A stretch of 44,240 nucleotides of DNA from an uncultured Desulfobulbaceae bacterium (GTDB lineage Bacteria > Desulfobacterota > Desulfobulbia > Desulfobulbales > Desulfocapsaceae): contig CAISPV010000013.1 in the NCBI GenBank assembly GCA_903887485.1, forward strand, positions 1-44,240. The letters are read 5' to 3'. Positions 3,424-43,897 of the stretch are shown here, piece after piece. A model generated the notes under the pieces. The model was not told the DNA's origin. It was given only the letters and a program-made list of their open reading frames with translations, and searched no databases. How positions within the stretch are numbered: position 1 is the stretch's first letter; the number at the start of each line of letters is the position of its first letter. Both the position numbers and the translations under genes were made by a program.

Positions 3424-4785
3424 CTACCTCCCGTCCTCACCAACAGCACCATCTTCTTCCAACACATCGAGCGCCAGCAAGGCCGCCGCCTCACCCACGG
3501 GAAGCTCCTGCACATCCTTCAGCTTTCTGCCGACGGCCCTTGATCGCACCTGCACCTTCTCTATGGTCTCCGAGGCCTGCTGCAGCTTCTTCTGCACTGC
3601 CTCCAGGACATCACCATATCTGCCCCACTCAGTCTTGACCGCGGCCAAGAGGTTCCAGACCTCACTCGATCGCTTTTGGATGGCCAGGGTGCGAAAACCC
3701 ATCTGCAGACTGCTGAGAATAGACCAGAGGGTCGTCGGCCCGGCAATTACCACCCGGCATTCGCGCTGGATGGCCTCAGTCAGCCCGGTGCGGCGGATGA
3801 CCTCGGCAAAAAGGCCTTCGATGGGCAGGAAGAGGATGGCAAAATCGGTGGTCCTGGGTGGATTCAGGTACTTCCGGCAGATATCCCCAGCACAGGCCTT
3901 GACCCGGCCCTCCAGCTGTTTGCCGGCCGCCTCCACCCCGGCCAGGTCGCCCAGTTCCTGGGCATCGAGCAGACGCTGATAATCCTCAATGGGGAACTTG
4001 GCATCAATTGGCAGCCAGACGACCTCACTGGCCTCCGTTCCCTGCCCCGGCAATTTAATGGCAAACTCAACCCGCTCGCCGCCATCCTTGGTGGCCACAT
4101 TAACGGCAAACTGATCGGGATTGAGCACCTGTTCCAGCAAGGCGCCTAACTGCACCTCGCCCCAGGTGCCGCGGGTCTTGACATTAGTCAGCACCTTTTT
4201 CAGATCACCCACGCCGGTGGCCAGGGTCTGCATCTCGCCCAGGCCCTTGTGCACCAGCTCCAGCCGTTCGCTGACCTGCTTGAAGGATTCGCTCAGGCGC
4301 TTTTCAAGAGTCCCCTGGAGTTTCTCGTCCACGGTCTGCCGCATCTGCTCAAGCTGTTTGGCATTATCAACCTGCATACTTTGCAACTTCCCTTCCACCG
4401 TCACCCTGATGGCCTCCAGTTTCTTCTCATTGGAATCGGCAAGCCTGCCAATCACCGTTGACATGGACTCAAGCTGGGCCTTCTGGATACCGGCAACATC
4501 CTTCATCCGTTGCACCACGGAATCACCAAAGGTCGCGAAGGCGGCAATAAGTTCCTGCCGCTGCTCGCGCGCCGTCCGGCTCAACTCCTCACGGCCTTTG
4601 GCCATCTCCTCGCGAATCATGGATTCGGTACGCCCCTGGCCCTTCTCAAAGGCATCAAGACGAGATAACAGCACGGAGACATCAATCTGCTGCGGTACCT
4701 TTTTCAGAATCAGAAAGAGAAAAAACAGCACGGCCACCAGCAAAATGATGGGGACAAGGGGGGCATACATCAGGATTTCCGTCAC
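3424..4785 (-). CDS. rmuC: DNA recombination protein RmuC
   Basis: RmuC family protein of 453 aa, linked in E. coli to limiting inversions at short inverted repeats; the core resembles a restriction-endonuclease fold. An N-terminal membrane helix (about residues 8-28) is followed by a long coiled coil (about 35-200) and the conserved core (TRGTWGEVQLGALLEQ, then LPIDAKFPIEDYQRL and FLPIEGLFAEV). The start is a GTG at 4785 with AGAGG about 7 nt upstream; a downstream ATG (residue 6) is possible. It is a single gene, divergent from the potassium channel gene. Given the palindrome-dense DNA next to it, the location is suggestive but probably coincidental. Confidence 0.93.
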   Translation of the reverse strand: MTEILMYAPLVPIILLVAVLFFLFLILKKVPQQIDVSVLLSRLDAFEKGQGRTESMIREEMAKGREELSRTAREQRQELIAAFATFGDSVVQRMKDVAGIQKAQLESMSTVIGRLADSNEKKLEAIRVTVEGKLQSMQVDNAKQLEQMRQTVDEKLQGTLEKRLSESFKQVSERLELVHKGLGEMQTLATGVGDLKKVLTNVKTRGTWGEVQLGALLEQVLNPDQFAVNVATKDGGERVEFAIKLPGQGTEASEVVWLPIDAKFPIEDYQRLLDAQELGDLAGVEAAGKQLEGRVKACAGDICRKYLNPPRTTDFAILFLPIEGLFAEVIRRTGLTEAIQRECRVVIAGPTTLWSILSSLQMGFRTLAIQKRSSEVWNLLAAVKTEWGRYGDVLEAVQKKLQQASETIEKVQVRSRAVGRKLKDVQELPVGEAAALLALDVLEEDGAVGEDGR

Positions 4786-4959
4786 AAAGAACCTCTTTCA
4801 ATCAATAATATCGTGTTTTTGTTTCTCGGCACCGCATGGAAACAAGGATGCCTTTAACTTAAACAAAAGCCCCCTTTTTTCAAGGTTTCCTTTCATCAAA
4901 AACGGGGTATAGTGAAGGGTAAAACAGACCCATCTCAAAAACAGAACAACAAGAGACAT

Positions 4960-5946
4960 ATGCCTAAATCAGTAACAGCCCTGATCATGCTGGTCGTTAT
5001 CCTGTCGTTCGGAACATTTGGTTACATGTTCATCGAACACAGCAATTTTATGGACAGCCTCTACATGACCATGATCACCATCAGCACCATTGGCTACGGC
5101 GAGGTCTTTCCCTTGGACACCAAGGGCCGGATCTTCACCATGGTGCTCATTCTGGTCGGGGTGGGTTTTGTCATGTTTATGTTCAGCAAGATTACCGAGG
5201 CAGTAGTGGAAGGTGAACTGCGGGCTCTTTACGGGAGATTGAATATGAAAAAAAAGGTCTTGGGACTCAGCGATCATTACATTATCTGCGGATTTGGCCG
5301 CATTGGCCGGGTCATCTGCAACCTGCTCAAAGAGGCGGACAAGCCCTTTGTCGTTATTGAAAACAATCCCGAGGTCATTCAGGAACTGGCTGAACTCAAT
5401 TATCTTTTCCTTGATGGCGAGGCCTCAAGCGACGACATGCTGCTCCAGGCCGGGGTCGAACGGGCCAAAGGACTTATCTCCGTGGTTTCCACTGACGCCG
5501 ATAATGTCTATATCACCCTGTCGGCCAGAGGCCTGAACAACGACCTTTATATCATGGCCCGCTCCAGCGGCACCGATGGCGGGGAGACCAAACTACTGCG
5601 CGCCGGGGCCAATCGGGTCATTTCGCCTTACTACATTGGGGCCTGCCGCATGGCCCAGCAACTCCTGCGGCCAACCGTCACTGATTTTATCGACCTGACC
5701 GTCCACAGCGGTGAACTTGGTCTGCGCATGGAAGAACTGACCGTCTCTGATCATGGCAAGATCGCGAACAGCACAGTAAAGGATTCCAATATCCGCCGTG
5801 ATTACAACCTGATTGTCGTGGCCATCAAACGCGATCAAGGCGAGATGCTGTTCAATCCCAACCCCAACAGCATGATCTTGACAAACGACACCCTGATTGT
5901 TCTCGGGGACTATAGCAAAATCAAGGAACTGGAAAAGATGATTTAG
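4960..5946 (+). CDS. Two-TM potassium channel with RCK (TrkA-N/TrkA-C) domains
   Basis: MthK/Kch-like ligand-gated potassium channel subunit in the inner membrane. It has TM1 (about residues 5-23), a pore helix, the selectivity filter T43-I-G-Y-G47, and TM2 (about 60-80). A Rossmann RCK domain follows (CGFGRIGR, first glycine near residue 111) and then a TrkA-C domain (about 240-325). Residue numbers assume the ATG at 4960, which has an AAGAGA site 4 nt upstream; a GTG at 4912 preceded by GGGG would add 16 residues. It is a monocistronic plus-strand gene whose 3' end overlaps the convergent CYTH gene by 4 bp. Confidence 0.92.
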   Translation: MPKSVTALIMLVVILSFGTFGYMFIEHSNFMDSLYMTMITISTIGYGEVFPLDTKGRIFTMVLILVGVGFVMFMFSKITEAVVEGELRALYGRLNMKKKVLGLSDHYIICGFGRIGRVICNLLKEADKPFVVIENNPEVIQELAELNYLFLDGEASSDDMLLQAGVERAKGLISVVSTDADNVYITLSARGLNNDLYIMARSSGTDGGETKLLRAGANRVISPYYIGACRMAQQLLRPTVTDFIDLTVHSGELGLRMEELTVSDHGKIANSTVKDSNIRRDYNLIVVAIKRDQGEMLFNPNPNSMILTNDTLIVLGDYSKIKELEKMI

Positions 5947-29457: not shown

Positions 29458-30774
29458 TTACAGCACCCGGAGTTTGCCGGTTTTCCAGAGAGCGACAGCG
29501 CTGTAAGTCCTTGCCCAAAAATTTGCTTTTTCTTCCGCAGGGTACTTGAAAAAATCCTGTGTCCAATTGAATGACGGATTTTGATACATGTCGCGGAGAA
29601 TGTTGCCGATATGTTTCGGTTTCCAGTGAGCATAAACCAGAAAATCGTAGACAAACCCAATAAGTTTTTTGGGCTGGAGCGCCGAAGGATTGGGGAAATG
29701 AAGAATATTCCGTGTCCAATCCGGGATGTGTTCCTCTTTTTTTGCATATTCCAAGGCCAGTCCGCGGGGAATGTCTTCCTGGCCGTCAAAATCACGGTGA
29801 AACAGAAAAAGATCGGAGGCCTTGTATTCGGCGATAAAATCGATCAGTGTCTCGTTCGAACAGGGGATGAATCCGGAAAATCTCCGGGCATGATCGGCCG
29901 CCTTTTCCAGGTTCCACATGCAATCTAATACAAAATCGATATCGGGTGTTTCGGTTATTTTTTGTCCGTCAAAGTAGGTGCCAATGACATCAACCAGAGG
30001 AGGTTGATGATAATTTCCGTACTTTTCCTGGTTTTTTTTGTGCAGGCTGAAAGGACTGCGAATTGCCCGCATAAAAGGCGAACCTTCGCTCCAGGTATTG
30101 TCAAAGTTGATACAGTGATCAGCGCTATCGGAAATGGTGACCGGCAAAAGTCCGGCGGCTTCATTGCCTTGAAAGGTCTTCATGGCCAGCAGTCCGATAT
30201 ATTCCGCAAGCTTGCCGAGCCCGCTGAACACATGGGCTGCATCCAGGGAGATCCCATACCAGCGCCTGATGTCATGGGGATCAATGTAATTGCAGGCCTT
30301 GATGAGATCGCCTTCCACAAAACCTATTTTCCGCAGCTCTTCAGTCGCTCTCGTTCCCATGATATTTTGAAATAAGAGGTGACAGCCGGAGGGAGTATAA
30401 TCGAGCAGATAAGGAATGCCTTTTGACCGGAAGAGCTCCTCGACAAAGCGCATCGAAGGGACCATCTGCTTGAAAAGTTGTTTTTGAGCTTCCTTGTCCG
30501 TATAGAGTTTGTAGTTCTCCGCTGCAAGAAAGATTTCAATATCTAGCGGCATGAGGACTGAGCCGGACCTCTCTCCGACAATAGGAAGATGAACCTGAAG
30601 CCCCCTTTCCAGGGTAAATTTTTCAAGTTGATCAACCGTGGCTGCTATTGCCGGGAAAATGGTCTCATGCGTCTCTGCCGCCAGCTCATTGCCCGCGGCA
30701 ATAACGTAGTGCCCGAACTGATAACAATTTCTCAGCCGGTCGATTACCCGGCCATAGTATTCTTGCCCATTCAT
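29458..30774 (-). CDS. Uncharacterised protein with primase-polymerase (AEP)-like motifs
   Basis: Protein of 438 aa that I do not recognise as a named family. Three spaced motifs resemble the archaeo-eukaryotic primase superfamily: LDIEIF (Asp78, Glu80) for the first metal pair, then SGCHLLF (Ser129, His132) after a helix ending VEELFRSKGIP, and NFDNTW...RSPFSLHKK (Asp225, Arg239, His245). The spacing (about 52, 93 and 20 residues) is compatible with AEP catalytic cores. The ATG at 30774 is chosen because the longer frame begins with TTG at 30843; its ribosome binding site is weak. Possible DNA or RNA primase, or an inactive relative. Lies 206 bp downstream of yaeQ on the same strand. Confidence 0.6.
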   Translation of the reverse strand: MNGQEYYGRVIDRLRNCYQFGHYVIAAGNELAAETHETIFPAIAATVDQLEKFTLERGLQVHLPIVGERSGSVLMPLDIEIFLAAENYKLYTDKEAQKQLFKQMVPSMRFVEELFRSKGIPYLLDYTPSGCHLLFQNIMGTRATEELRKIGFVEGDLIKACNYIDPHDIRRWYGISLDAAHVFSGLGKLAEYIGLLAMKTFQGNEAAGLLPVTISDSADHCINFDNTWSEGSPFMRAIRSPFSLHKKNQEKYGNYHQPPLVDVIGTYFDGQKITETPDIDFVLDCMWNLEKAADHARRFSGFIPCSNETLIDFIAEYKASDLFLFHRDFDGQEDIPRGLALEYAKKEEHIPDWTRNILHFPNPSALQPKKLIGFVYDFLVYAHWKPKHIGNILRDMYQNPSFNWTQDFFKYPAEEKANFWARTYSAVALWKTGKLRVL

Positions 30775-30980
30775 ATGTTTCTGCGGCTCCCTTCCCTTGT
30801 CAGCCTGGAATAGCATAAAGGTATTTAAATAAGCCAATCTCAAAAACCAAGGACAAGACCCTGCCCTGCTCTGTTCTTCAATGAACCGGACAAAAATTTG
30901 CCCACCATACCAAAAGTCTACGCCTGCAGATACCCAACTGTCAAGCCTACCCCCTGTTTCTCCCTGGCAAGTTTACTTGA

Positions 30981-31517
30981 TTATGCAGCCTGCAATGACA
31001 CCCAAGACACCTCACATTCCGCATGTTCAGCGGCGACATAGGCAGTATCACCGGTAATGGTGACGGAAAGATTCATGGTCCGCTTCACCAGCGCCGCCAA
31101 TTCCTGGATACTTCCCCACGGAAGCTGAAGAACCGCCACCGGCAGCTCATTGAACTTTGCTCGTCCCTGGGCCCACCAGGTATCCGATTTTGAATTAAAG
31201 CTGTAAATCTTAACTGCCGGCGAAATCCGGGTTGCTTTTCGTATTCTGTCAACAGTTGGCTCCCCCACATCGATCCATAATGATATGCGATCATCCAAGG
31301 TGCGGGCCCATATATCGGGCTCTTCCACTGCGCACAGTCCTTTCGTAAACACCAGATACTCCTGGGCATTCAAACAAAAGGCCAGAACACGAGCCATCAT
31401 CCGCTCAAGTGTTTCAGAAGGGTGTTGAGCAACCGTTAAATTGAGCGTGTCATAATAATCCCGGTCGGTATCCGCTAAGGTAATTTTTAATTTATAAATT
31501 GTCGGTTTCAATGCCAT
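30981..31517 (-). CDS. yaeQ: YaeQ family protein
   Basis: Protein of 178 aa of the YaeQ family, close to E. coli YaeQ across its length (MALKPTIYK, DRDYYDTLNLTVAQHPSETLERMMAR, LVFTKGLCAVEEPDIW, LWIDVGEP, IKSDTWW-like region). Published structures assign the fold to the PD-(D/E)XK nuclease superfamily; the biological role is unclear. The ATG at 31517 has CGGAG about 12 nt upstream. A gene remnant overlaps the start by 7 nt, as though a longer upstream gene once was coupled to it. It and the AEP-like gene are on the same strand. Confidence 0.93.
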   Translation of the reverse strand: MALKPTIYKLKITLADTDRDYYDTLNLTVAQHPSETLERMMARVLAFCLNAQEYLVFTKGLCAVEEPDIWARTLDDRISLWIDVGEPTVDRIRKATRISPAVKIYSFNSKSDTWWAQGRAKFNELPVAVLQLPWGSIQELAALVKRTMNLSVTITGDTAYVAAEHAECEVSWVSLQAA

Positions 31518-31627
31518 AACTCGTTGATCTCCGGAAGATGTTCCCACGCCATGCTGTTACGGGCCTTTGCTGCAAATTCGTTTTTGGTTAAAAGAATGAT
31601 TCCGGCATCAACAGCGTAAAACGTGGC
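31511..31627 (-). pseudogene. 3' remnant of a gene that once preceded yaeQ
   Basis: Open minus-strand frame of 38 codons (FYAVDAGIILLTKNEFAAKA, then ARNSMAWEHLPEINELWH) that ends at a TGA overlapping the yaeQ start codon and is cut upstream by an in-frame TAG at 31628-31630. No start codon. The overlap is typical of coupled genes, so I read it as the C-terminus of a lost gene. The family is not recognised. Confidence 0.3.
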
Positions 31628-31673: not shown

Positions 31674-32393
31674 TTATTTATTTAAAAAATATGGCAATGT
31701 AATATCATTGATATTGGGTGGGTTACCTATGTCAATTTCTTCCAGTTTTATATTTTTATGTCGATCTACCATGGAGACTAGACAATGGTACAAGAATTCT
31801 ATAAATAAATTTGCTATATTCAATACTTCAGAGAACAACGTTTCTTTTGCAACTTTTGCATCTGATTTGCCTGTGTACTCCAGAATTGTTCTTAATCGTA
31901 TAATATCAGAAATGTAGAAAAAACTGTTTCCTTGGCTTTCTGACAGGTATATTTCTGGTATAAGGTCGGACATCATCGAAGGTATTTGGTTATTAACTTC
32001 ATCAGTATCGTAATGAAATGCAAGTTTGTTTCGAATGTTTTTGATGAGATTGTCTTTTCCAAAATATGTCTTCAATTCCTTTAAACTTCTCTGCGCCTCA
32101 TCTGATAATAGTATTTCGTATTCCTTAGCTAATCTTGATTGAAAGTATGCTTTCTGAAGGAACATCCAACATTCCCACAATTTGCCAGATAATAGACTCG
32201 TAAAAAAAATGCTTTGTGAATGTTGTGCTTTTGCAGCAACACTGTTTTCGGCCTCTTTGTTTGACAAAATAAGTAGTTTTATTAATATGTTAACCTCATT
32301 TAGAATCGTACCAGCTTGGATAAAAAATACCTTTTCAGTTTCAGAAAATAATTCAAGATCATCTTTGGAGAAAAGTACTTTATATAAGTTCAT
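31674..32393 (-). CDS. AT-rich hypothetical protein with a HEPN-like R-x5-H motif
   Basis: Protein of 239 aa, mainly helical, cytosolic, not recognised by family. Residues 120-128 read IRNKLAFHY, an Arg121-x5-His127 spacing like the RNase motif of HEPN proteins, with hydrophobic helices around it; this is suggestive but common by chance. The coding sequence is markedly more AT-rich than its neighbours, which suggests transfer. It lies 156 bp upstream of yaeQ on the same strand; the gene remnant lies between. The ATG at 32393 has no strong ribosome binding site (a TGAGGTTAACAG-like tract lies nearby). Could be a toxin or abortive-infection type protein, but this is only an idea. Confidence 0.65.
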   Translation of the reverse strand: MNLYKVLFSKDDLELFSETEKVFFIQAGTILNEVNILIKLLILSNKEAENSVAAKAQHSQSIFFTSLLSGKLWECWMFLQKAYFQSRLAKEYEILLSDEAQRSLKELKTYFGKDNLIKNIRNKLAFHYDTDEVNNQIPSMMSDLIPEIYLSESQGNSFFYISDIIRLRTILEYTGKSDAKVAKETLFSEVLNIANLFIEFLYHCLVSMVDRHKNIKLEEIDIGNPPNINDITLPYFLNK

Positions 32394-33052: not shown

Positions 33053-34195
33053 ATGTGTCGTTTAGCCCTGAAAACCGCCATTGAACCTTTTTCACCCTAT
33101 GAGGTTCTCACAGCCATGGAAGCCATGCAGGAAGGCTATGATGGCTCCGGGCTTGGCCTGTTATTGCGCGGGCTGCACTTTGAGCATTACAAATACGACT
33201 CAAAGCACCCTGTTCTTTCCGGGATTGCCCACAGTGAAGCCGCCTGGCAGCGTCTGAACAGCATCATGGCGCAACGTGGCTATGAGCTGAAATATGACCA
33301 CGAATTTGAGACCCATCCCGAGATGGTCGAGGCCAAGGATCGCTACCGTTATTTTGTCCGGGTCTACAAGATGCCCCCGGCCTTTGAGGGCAAGAGCACG
33401 GAAGAGATCGAAAACGAACTGATGCTCACTCGCCTCTTCCTGCGGGCCAACGGGGAAGAAAACGGCAGCGACCTCACCGCCTTCTCCTTCTGGCCGGATG
33501 TGGCCATGATCAAGGAAGTGGGCTGGCCCATGGAGATCGGCAACGCCCTGACCCTCCATGACAACCGGATCACCTCCCGGGTCTGCATGGCCCAGGGCCG
33601 GCAGAACACAAACTACGGCATTAACCTCTATGCCTGCCACCCGTTCTTCATCCAGGGCATTGCCACCATGACCAACGGCGAGAATACCGCCTTTGTGCCC
33701 ATCCGCGACTGGCTGCTCGGCAAGCATTTCCCCGGTTACATGGGGTATCAGAGTGACTCCGAGGTCTTTGCCCATATCCTCCATTACACCCTGAAACAGC
33801 TCAAACTGCCCTTGCAGGCATATAAACACATCATCACCCCGCTCAAAAATGCGGAACTGGACAAACATCCTCAGGGCGTTTTCCTGAAAGGGTTGCGTGA
33901 TGCCTGCCGCCGGCTGATCATTGACGGCCCCAATGCCGTTATCGGCACCCTGCCTGACGAGACCTGCCTGCTGGTCATGGATCACAAAAAGATGCGGCCT
34001 GCCACCGTCGGCGGCAGAGACGGAGTCTGGGCCTTTGCCTCCGAGATGTGTGGCGTTGCGGCCATGGTCCCTGACCGTGACCCATCCCTTGATTTTCAAC
34101 CTATGCGTGAACATACAATTATTGTACCACCCGAGAGAAAGGAACTGACAATATGGTCTCAGCTCGATCCGTATCCGTTGGCCCAAGTAGCTTAG
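33053..34195 (+). CDS. Glutamate synthase glutaminase domain protein (class II GATase)
   Basis: Stand-alone glutamine amidotransferase class II subunit, 380 aa, releasing ammonia from glutamine for the synthase. The N-terminal nucleophile is Cys2 (MCRLALK), exposed after Met removal. Features: DGSGLGLLLRG, the RYFVRVYK strand, and the GRQNTNYGINLYACHPFF and NGENTAF loops. It corresponds to the first third of bacterial GltB. The start has AGGAG about 8 nt upstream. It overlaps the next gene by 43 nt. Located in the cytosol with its partner subunits. Confidence 0.88.
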   Translation: MCRLALKTAIEPFSPYEVLTAMEAMQEGYDGSGLGLLLRGLHFEHYKYDSKHPVLSGIAHSEAAWQRLNSIMAQRGYELKYDHEFETHPEMVEAKDRYRYFVRVYKMPPAFEGKSTEEIENELMLTRLFLRANGEENGSDLTAFSFWPDVAMIKEVGWPMEIGNALTLHDNRITSRVCMAQGRQNTNYGINLYACHPFFIQGIATMTNGENTAFVPIRDWLLGKHFPGYMGYQSDSEVFAHILHYTLKQLKLPLQAYKHIITPLKNAELDKHPQGVFLKGLRDACRRLIIDGPNAVIGTLPDETCLLVMDHKKMRPATVGGRDGVWAFASEMCGVAAMVPDRDPSLDFQPMREHTIIVPPERKELTIWSQLDPYPLAQVA

Positions 34196-42442: not shown

Positions 42443-43897
42443 TCACTTGTGGGGGTGGGTGATACCGGGCAAAAACATTGGCCAGTAAAACTTATACTGC
42501 AACTCGCCATACCGGAACAGGGCATCGCCAGCCCCTTCCGGCGCACTACTATTATACGTGGCCCCGAAGAACAGAGCATCGTTCATAACAAGAAATTCAC
42601 TCGGCCAACTGGAATCACTACCAGGGACAATATCCTTAACTAGCGTCGCGTTACCGACGGTACCGTTCGTTTTCCATAGTTCCGTCCCGTTGGTCACGTT
42701 TTCGGCACTGAAATAGACTTCTCCCTGAAAAGCGATAAAATAGCCCGGCCAACTGCTGCCTGATCCAGGATTAATGTCTTTCACCATAACCGCACCATCG
42801 GTATCGTCACTTCTCCACAGTTCCGATCCGTGGGTCCCATCATCTGCAGTAAAGTAGAGGATCCCATTCACATCCGTGAGACCATAAGGCTCAAAATTGA
42901 GATCCGTGCCGGGATGGATGTCTTTTACCAGCGTTGCGTTGCCAGGAGTGCCGTCGCTCTTCCATAATTCCCGGCCGTGTGTATCATCCTGGGCACGAAA
43001 AAACAGGGTTCCGTTAACCACGGTGAAATAACAGGGATAACTTGATCCCGAACCGTTAATCACATACGGGGTCTCATTGACATTCTTCACCAGGGTTGTG
43101 CCGACTTCCGTCCCGTCACTGCGCCACAATTCATAGCCGTTGGTTCCCTCATTACCCTGGAAATAAAAGTAGCCATTCAAGATCACAGGGGTTTGAGTGC
43201 TATCGACTGCGACCCCGCCAGATATATCGGGCCAGATATCCTTGACCATCGTGGTCCCTCCCTCCGTACCGTTGCTCTTCCACCACTCATCGCCATGAAT
43301 CGCGTCATTGGCGACAAAGAAGAGCGTATCGTTCATAACAAAAAGGTATTCGGGCCGCCCCCCATTGTTTCCCGGCACAAGCTGAATATCTTTCACCATG
43401 ACCGTATTCGCGGCAGTACCGTCTGTTTTCCACAAAGCCGGACCATTGCTAACTGTATCAGTGCCGCCAAAAAATACCGTGCTGCCGATAGACGCCAGAT
43501 GGCACGAGTAATCACTCACCCCATCACTGGAGCCGGGATAAAGATCCTTGACCATTGTAGTTCCTGCACCCGTACCGTTACTCTTCCAGAGCTCCCAGCC
43601 ACTGGCCGTTTCATAGGCACAGAAATAGAGGGTACCGCCGACATCAAGCAGCCCTTGAGGTACCGATTTATCAGTCCCGGTAGTAAATTTTTTAACCACC
43701 GTCGTGCCACTGCGGGTACCGTCGCTCTTCCACAAGGCGCTGCCGTTCAAACTGTCATAAGCGGAGAAAAAGAAAACGCCGTTCATCTCGGTCAGATAAC
43801 GGGGTGAAACCTCCTTTACCCGACTCACCACCAACTCTGCCTGCACTAAAGACGGCCACCAGATCAACAATAAAATCAGAGGAATAACTTTTTTCAT
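42443..43897 (-). CDS. Secreted ELWxxDGT-repeat protein
   Basis: Exported protein of 484 aa with an N-terminal signal peptide (KKVIPLILLLIWWPSLVQA). About eight repeats of 45-50 residues follow, each with a core like ELWKSDGT or ELWKTNGT and a following GTTLVKDI-type strand, the pattern of the ELWxxDGT family (predicted propeller or solenoid, usually extracellular). The last repeats keep the pattern and the protein then ends in a short non-repeated tail without a sorting signal or anchor. The repeats at the DNA level are similar enough to allow slippage. Function unknown; adhesion or polysaccharide binding are possible. Confidence 0.85.
   Translation of the reverse strand: MKKVIPLILLLIWWPSLVQAELVVSRVKEVSPRYLTEMNGVFFFSAYDSLNGSALWKSDGTRSGTTVVKKFTTGTDKSVPQGLLDVGGTLYFCAYETASGWELWKSNGTGAGTTMVKDLYPGSSDGVSDYSCHLASIGSTVFFGGTDTVSNGPALWKTDGTAANTVMVKDIQLVPGNNGGRPEYLFVMNDTLFFVANDAIHGDEWWKSNGTEGGTTMVKDIWPDISGGVAVDSTQTPVILNGYFYFQGNEGTNGYELWRSDGTEVGTTLVKNVNETPYVINGSGSSYPCYFTVVNGTLFFRAQDDTHGRELWKSDGTPGNATLVKDIHPGTDLNFEPYGLTDVNGILYFTADDGTHGSELWRSDDTDGAVMVKDINPGSGSSWPGYFIAFQGEVYFSAENVTNGTELWKTNGTVGNATLVKDIVPGSDSSWPSEFLVMNDALFFGATYNSSAPEGAGDALFRYGELQYKFYWPMFLPGITHPHK

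Follow-up and report, generated by a model that had tools for sequence, protein, structure and literature searches.

The window analysed here (the whole stretch of 44,240 nucleotides from contig CAISPV010000013.1 of an uncultured Desulfobulbaceae bacterium, assembly GCA_903887485.1) carries on its minus strand an open reading frame for a protein of 438 amino acids, which most likely belongs to an undescribed and very divergent family of the archaeo-eukaryotic primase (AEP) superfamily. Its start is an ATG at 30774, preceded by a purine-rich stretch, and its stop codon ends at 29458; an alternative TTG start upstream of the ATG would give a product of 461 amino acids. The sequences LDIEIF, SGCHLLF and RSPFSLHKK, from which the original prediction had proposed a divergent primase or primase-polymerase, are present as described. 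The features of the gene and its predicted product are as follows.

29458..30774, minus strand: coding sequence, 438 amino acids, divergent AEP-like (primase-polymerase-like) protein, subfamily A
29869..30585, minus strand: putative AEP catalytic core, about residues 64–302, from VIA-align comparison to LigD-Pol 2fao
30529..30558, minus strand: motif I, V73-LMPLDIEI-F82, with putative metal ligands D78 and E80 (DxE)
30370..30390, minus strand: motif II, S129-GCHLL-F135, with putative nucleotide-binding His132
30100..30108, minus strand: motif III, N223-F-D225, with a putative third acidic metal ligand
30034..30069, minus strand: stretch R236-AIRSPFSLHK-K247, resembling motif IV, in which R239 and H245 are spaced as in archaeal PriS (Arg+6-His)
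29467..29826, minus strand: predicted C-terminal helical domain, about residues 317–436, resembling the pRN1 helix bundle (PriCT-1-like), from VIA-align comparison

A single scan of genome_contigs seeded by the window protein yielded 16 relatives with 68–97% identity among 26 pattern stretches, all titled as Desulfobacterota-type metagenome-assembled genomes, with one (L017) cut by the contig end. Matches were found in 11 of 257 genomes of the class, including the window's own genome, and in 9 of 395 genomes drawn from the phylum. The ratio dN/dS (Nei-Gojobori) between the window copy and nine of the 15 full-length relatives was 0.055–0.095 in six pairs, half of them with dS > 1.5; the remaining three pairs were saturated. 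Because it has 16 relatives in genome contigs and a low dN/dS, the open reading frame is a real gene under purifying selection.

The family comprises subfamily A, to which the window gene belongs (437–438 amino acids), subfamily B (473–487 amino acids, about 22–27% identical to A; L024, L025, L026/L033, L028 and L034, with L027 and L029 partial) and subfamily C (about 502 amino acids, 35% identical to B; L035–L038), which is present in four of five genomes of its class; B and C were seen through the one scan seeded by A and through the genomes of one phylum. On the basis of profile comparisons with hhalign (A–B E 1.4e-19, A–C E 4.5e-23, B–C E 7.4e-72) the three subfamilies are clearly homologous to one another. 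The B and C proteins (L024–L028, L034–L038) also bear a C-terminal cysteine-containing tail (NC.S..EKG...), possibly a metal site, which is absent from A.

Three motifs define the AEP superfamily: hhhDhD/E (motif I, as defined in passages of PMC10345425), sxH (motif II) and hD/E (motif III), and the window protein has M75-P-L-D78-I-E80, G130-C-H132 and F224-D225 (in CINFD) at these places. This bare triple is weak evidence, no better than chance, because a loose regular expression for it also matches 8 of 139 other six-frame open reading frames longer than 300 amino acids. Conservation across the subfamilies is stronger evidence. An alignment of seven A and four B proteins, with 23–25% identity between the groups, contains 48 invariant columns, which include D78, E80, H132, D225, R236, R239, P241, F242, S243 and K247, while all of these ten positions except His132 are among the 40 columns that are invariant in an alignment of five A, five B and two C proteins. 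Motifs I and III and the Arg/Pro/Phe/Ser/Lys stretch are thus invariant in the aligned members of A, B and C, and the loss of motifs in homologues, named by the original prediction as a finding that would speak against it, is limited to the motif II histidine of C.

This histidine is kept in all 16 full-length A proteins and all five full-length B proteins, and is replaced by asparagine in all four C proteins. Passages of Kazlauskas and colleagues (PMC5862659) describe a motif IV arginine located in a flange strand and, for archaeal PriS, a combination H-R-H whose last histidine lies six residues after the arginine (numbering 231/237 and 318/324). Subfamily A has such a triad (H132, R239, and H245 at R239+6); its third position is a tyrosine in B, and C has asparagine at the motif II histidine and tyrosine at the last position. 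The change in C, together with the contraction of motif II in A relative to B (SG.H vs SGRGHH), is what would be expected if these were AEP-fold proteins with lost or altered catalysis, acting as nucleic-acid- or nucleotide-binding factors. We consider this quite unlikely, as the aligned A, B and C proteins show no variation at any of the three acidic positions, A is under purifying selection, and AEP families lacking the motif II histidine are known (PolpTN2-like and RepB'-like), of which PolpTN2 has been shown to be active according to the same passages of PMC5862659. Catalytic activity of the window protein is, in our judgement, likely.

The motif IV-like stretch provides a more specific resemblance to known AEPs. 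The 12-mer RAIRSPFSLHKK is identical to Sulfolobus solfataricus PriS at 8/12 positions, a score reached by none of 20,000 shuffles and none of 576 other open reading frames (some of which are AEPs of other families), in a test made post hoc, once the resemblance to this protein had been noticed. Against Pyrococcus horikoshii PriS the same 12-mer scores only 6/12; 261 of the 20,000 shuffles and 8 of the 576 open reading frames do as well or better, so the P. horikoshii comparison is not discriminating. Profile comparisons point in the same direction by register. In an hhalign comparison of the family with LigD-Pol (P 0.023) motif II was in register and motif I out of register; with PriS (P 0.028) the alignment spans nine columns, those of motif II (SGRGYH); and with A alone against PriS (P 0.43) R236–K247 aligned exactly with R203–K214 of the PriS piece. 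No meaningful in-register alignment was obtained with a TOTE-type AEP set or with a second set, which was seeded by a different bacterial AEP and for the most part overlaps it. The comparison was confined to these four sets of AEPs. Since the scores are non-significant and register alone is in favour, we regard these profile links as suggestive.

Structural comparison was based on AlphaFold predictions from a shallow alignment of 16 rows. In the model motifs I and II fall on predicted strands (residues 73–80 and 130–137, local predicted local distance difference test (pLDDT) score about 30–60), as the original prediction had supposed; its expectation of matching secondary structure did not hold for motifs III and IV, which are coil and helix. 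The ten-residue blocks from 321 to 400 have pLDDT 75–91, except for 361–370 (58). Candidates from Foldseek searches were re-examined with VIA-align, in which Z values of 4–6, a range that the tool rates as middling, can arise by chance and rows whose Z differs by no more than 1 count as tied. With the whole model, 14 of 108 chains reached Z >= 2 and the first three rows were all AEPs, namely LigD-Pol 2fao (Z 4.6, 120 residues) and the pRN1 PrimPol chains 9aam (4.0) and 3m1m (3.9), the pRN1 rows placing window residues 317–436 on pRN1 256–370. With the model of the core alone (residues 50–305), 108 of 517 chains reached Z >= 2 and the first seven rows were all AEPs: LigD-Pol 2fao (5.9, 145 residues), human Pri1 (5.3, 5.1 and 5.0), P. 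horikoshii PriS (5.2) and S. solfataricus PriS (4.9 and 4.8). The first non-AEP row was aprataxin (Z 4.6), from which only LigD-Pol is clear by more than 1. AEPs thus head both lists, and the structural check that the original prediction proposed for itself did not go against it, poor as the models are. What we find persuasive is that two parts of the protein appear independently to match two AEP modules, in the order in which they occur in pRN1 PrimPol, and because of this agreement, together with the conserved motifs and the PriS-like 12-mer that also support the original reading, an AEP fold of the window protein seems highly probable.

Several observations nevertheless weigh against that assignment, and are shared with the alternative that the protein has another alpha/beta or RNA recognition motif-like nucleotide-binding fold with motifs that converged by chance. 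Besides the matches of the regular expression to unrelated open reading frames, Pro76 in motif I stands where a hydrophobic residue is usual. The profile scores lie within the range of decoys (84 single six-frame open reading frames, rather than profiles), one of which equalled or exceeded the score of LigD-Pol and two that of PriS. Both models are of low confidence (pLDDT 50.1 and predicted template modelling score (pTM) 0.45 for the whole protein, 50.7 and 0.54 for the core), and Foldseek gave no significant match with either of them or in a viral structure library (best E 1.4, 1.0 and 0.46, respectively). Its top ranks were mostly unrelated folds, with AEPs at ranks 2, 25 and 33 for the whole model and 6, 8, 10, 11, 19, 34 and 41 for the core; among the top 50 rows from the viral library were an AE_Prim_S_like protein (13), a TOTE primase (18) and a PriCT-1 protein (33), none of them significant. 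Most AEP rows of the core list are tied with aprataxin (Z 4.4–4.6), below which come rows for HINT, adeno-associated virus (AAV) Rep and MobM (Z 3–3.6).

Databases recognised nothing either, in agreement with the original description of the protein as unrecognised. No Pfam family, DNA_primase_S (PF01896) and LigD_Prim-Pol (PF21686) included, matched the query, two other A, five B or two C proteins; NCBIfam gave no useful match for the query, one A, two B and one C protein; PHROGs and PADLOC gave nothing for the query, two B and one C protein; and searches of PDB sequences with the single protein and two family profiles returned only non-AEP matches with E 0.77 or worse. None of the papers listed by literature searches describes this family, as judged from titles and the opening lines of abstracts. 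On the other side, the seven best core rows are all AEPs, LigD-Pol stands 1.3 above aprataxin, and the PriS-like 12-mer with its Arg+6-His spacing comes without any HUH or HIT motif seen by eye, so that we judge a non-AEP fold to be improbable. The folds of HUH replicases or relaxases and of HIT/aprataxin proteins were set aside on the same grounds, having equal or lower Z and no such motif (the window sequence was read by eye, with no motif search run, for what we take to be the HUH motif and the HIT motif, HxHxH).

Within the AEP superfamily the window protein resembles several systems in part. It shares with PriS and Pri1 the order of motifs I to IV, a stretch R..R.PFSLHKK in which the eight identities to S. 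solfataricus PriS fall, the putative H-R-H nucleotide triad and VIA-align Z values of 4.6–5.3, but differs in having a DxE motif I where PriS has DxD, 11 rather than three residues from the motif III aspartate to the first arginine, no counterpart of the cysteine cluster that the Pyrococcus PriS sequence has after motif I and before motif II, a fused C-terminal helical domain, and no significant profile match. LigD-Pol and Prim-PolC have in common with the family the best structural row (2fao), the repair-gene neighbours of B described below and an apparently chromosomal location, whereas PF21686 is not matched, the window protein has an additional C-terminal domain and no ligase gene was recognised beside the family other than a LigD-Pol fragment in L064. 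Residues 317–436 appear to resemble the helix bundle of the pRN1 ORF904 PrimPol, although Pfam recognises no PriCT domain there, no plasmid relative was found and the window protein is too short to contain a helicase domain. Human-type PrimPol, likened here by motif description only, has a DxE motif I (from a reference title in PMC10345425), and its family has the motif IV arginine (passages of PMC5862659), whereas no zinc finger was recognised in the window protein. Other Desulfobacterota genomes (L045–L063) encode helicase-fused AEPs of 700–830 amino acids which match PF01896 and which we take to be TOTE-type; L059 and L061 carry a shorter AEP-containing open reading frame.

Indications of function come mainly from the neighbours of subfamily B. 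In five of seven B loci (L065, L066, L067, L069 and L070, all tested with Pfam) the B-type gene is directly adjoined by a PF01261 (AP_endonuc_2) gene, and in the other two (L064 and L071) by a gene of the uracil-DNA glycosylase (UDG) superfamily. The 9.1-kb contig of L064 contains UDG, the B-type gene, two Ku genes and the LigD-Pol fragment, while L071 (G088:C468) is a compact cluster of the end of the B-type gene with UDG-superfamily, flavoprotein-like, NUDIX and PolX-type polymerase genes. SbcD and SbcC genes are found in L066, and a fragment of SbcC and a second PF01261 gene, which we read as Nfo-like, in L069. A divergent PF01261-like gene stands immediately upstream of the C-type gene in all four C loci; the three of these genes that were tested passed the cut-off of 31.1 bits narrowly (31.4–33.6 bits).

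The partner of B was compared more closely with endonuclease IV. In an alignment of five B-linked TIM (triosephosphate isomerase) barrels with the Nfo-like protein of one host, eight of the nine positions that we take to be the Nfo metal ligands share a column in all five copies; for the first histidine the only counterpart is a local motif displaced by six columns. Among NCBIfam models CbiR, a cobamide phosphodiesterase, scores best on the barrel, below its cut-off and ahead of nfo. Endonuclease IV proper was rejected as the identity of this partner on account of the rank of CbiR and the displaced histidine, and the sequence comparisons indicate an AP-endonuclease-superfamily hydrolase, no more being claimed. 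The single copy tested falls below the cut-offs of both the CbiR and the endonuclease IV models, and the barrel looks like a subfamily of its own. A search directed at the 17 family-bearing genomes found the B-linked barrel in close homologues (at least 44%) in five, each time beside the B-type gene, and weaker PF01261-type matches in all 17.

These neighbours suggest a role in repair rather than in replication, and among the open reading frames adjoining the B-type genes, most of them read by eye, we recognised neither a replicative helicase nor any replication gene; the placing of the window gene by the original prediction outside known replication genes is borne out, with repair added. According to passages of PMC5663958, Prim-PolC of mycobacteria works with LigC in base excision repair, where it fills short gaps, and endonuclease IV was the best end-processing enzyme in the reconstituted reaction; Prim-PolC is the closest functional precedent. 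The family is probably a repair polymerase. For subfamily B itself we put a repair role at about even, and for the window protein, to which it extends from B, at somewhat short of that, the transfer from relatives only about 25% identical being the weakest link in the argument by analogy. Subfamily A has no conserved repair neighbour, its neighbours differing even within the genus, and its patchy occurrence (4 of 17 genomes of the window's genus), the rank of CbiR and the distribution of Ku (5 of the 17 family-bearing genomes, with none in the window's assembly) likewise count against this reading. Non-homologous end joining was rejected as a general role on the basis of the same Ku distribution.

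The principal rival to repair synthesis, and one compatible with it, is a priming role, in which the protein would be a replicative or damage-tolerance primase (repriming in the manner of PrimPol) instead of a gap-filling polymerase. This is rather unlikely in our estimation, although it is consistent with the C-terminal helical domain, which appears to resemble the helix bundle of pRN1, PriCT-1 being a module tied to primer synthesis (passages of PMC5862659), and with the PriS-like HRH signature and a motif I of the DxE type as in human PrimPol (a reference title in PMC10345425). Repair Prim-Pols have the same core, however, and the neighbours of the B-type genes are excision-repair and end-joining genes.

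The immediate surroundings of the window gene include two further features.

30915..30944, minus strand: TTGACA-N18-TAGACT, a sigma-70-like promoter sequence lying upstream of the gene, by consensus match only
30981..31547, minus strand: YaeQ family gene (PF07152, E 3.6e-69), neighbouring the AEP-like gene upstream on its own strand

Promoter sites of this kind number 5 in the region, where 3.0 (sd 1.9) would be expected, and this one is weak evidence. The YaeQ gene is directly upstream of the AEP-like gene in L002, two genes upstream in L003 and not seen in L004, and is not shown to be linked to it. Downstream, on the opposite strand, genes for a resistance-nodulation-division (RND) pump and an outer-membrane efflux protein end. 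Three other open reading frames of the window (31677–32393, 33053–34192 and 42446–43897; 239, 380 and 484 amino acids) had no Pfam match at the thresholds used. Elsewhere, a gene fusing a ribosome-hibernation domain (PF02482) to a cold-shock domain (PF00313) lies near A in L005, L007 and L010 and near B in L066 and L069 (Pfam-tested in L007, L010 and L066, and read by eye in L005 and L069), and L005 has an antitoxin-like gene and a PIN-domain gene (PF01850) shortly upstream of the A-type gene (4616–5286).

The patchy distribution of the family and the antitoxin-like and PIN-domain genes of L005 would fit a replication protein of a mobile element that has lost its element. In bacteria, AEPs of the PrimPol-PV1 type are nearly all element-encoded, and PriCT domains are exclusive to element-encoded AEPs, as stated in passages of PMC5862659. 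Encoding by mobile elements, the hallmark of PrimPol-PV1 and Prim-Pol proper, is not what we see here. No relatives of A were found in viral contigs, plasmids or phages, the combined A and B profile had no match in viral contigs, B and C had none in plasmids or phages, and no integrase, terminase, relaxase or replication helicase was recognised among the neighbours, which look chromosomal (mostly read by eye, partly searched). We therefore consider such an origin very unlikely, and the window gene is apparently a chromosomal gene of some Desulfobacterota rather than a mobile-element replication gene.

Taken as an AEP, the window protein would hold two metal ions by D78, E80 and D225 of its catalytic core and bind the incoming nucleotide by H132, R239 and H245, while its C-terminal helical domain may act in primer initiation like the helper domain of pRN1 PrimPol or the PriL-type partners. 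It would most likely make short nucleic-acid stretches at damaged DNA, by gap filling and possibly by priming, and subfamily B would probably act on strands already opened by the glycosylase or AP-endonuclease-superfamily enzyme encoded next to it. We think it reasonably likely that the window protein is both an AEP and an enzyme of nucleotidyl transfer in DNA maintenance. More tentatively, the family may form part of a self-contained base-excision-type repair module in Desulfobacterota, in which a glycosylase or a dedicated AP-endonuclease-superfamily partner would open the strand and a Prim-Pol with a fused PriL/PriCT-like domain would refill it, with subfamily A standing alone.

In the passages of the papers cited here, bacterial AEPs are LigD/Prim-PolC-type repair enzymes, mobile-element proteins or CRISPR-linked proteins. 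If the present reading is true, the superfamily would be widened by a chromosomal and very divergent family that combines a PriS-like signature for nucleotide binding with gene partners of the AP-endonuclease and uracil-DNA glycosylase superfamilies. Should the weak structural match of the C-terminal domain hold, this chromosomal family would also have a PriCT-like C-terminus, against the restriction of PriCT to elements described in passages of PMC5862659. Subfamily A would then stand alone in a genome without detected LigD-Pol- or PriS-type AEP or Ku (the window's assembly, 97.7% complete, has no LigD-Pol and no PF01896 match), and the family would suggest that gap filling by Prim-Pols in excision repair extends beyond the LigC-type systems of mycobacteria.
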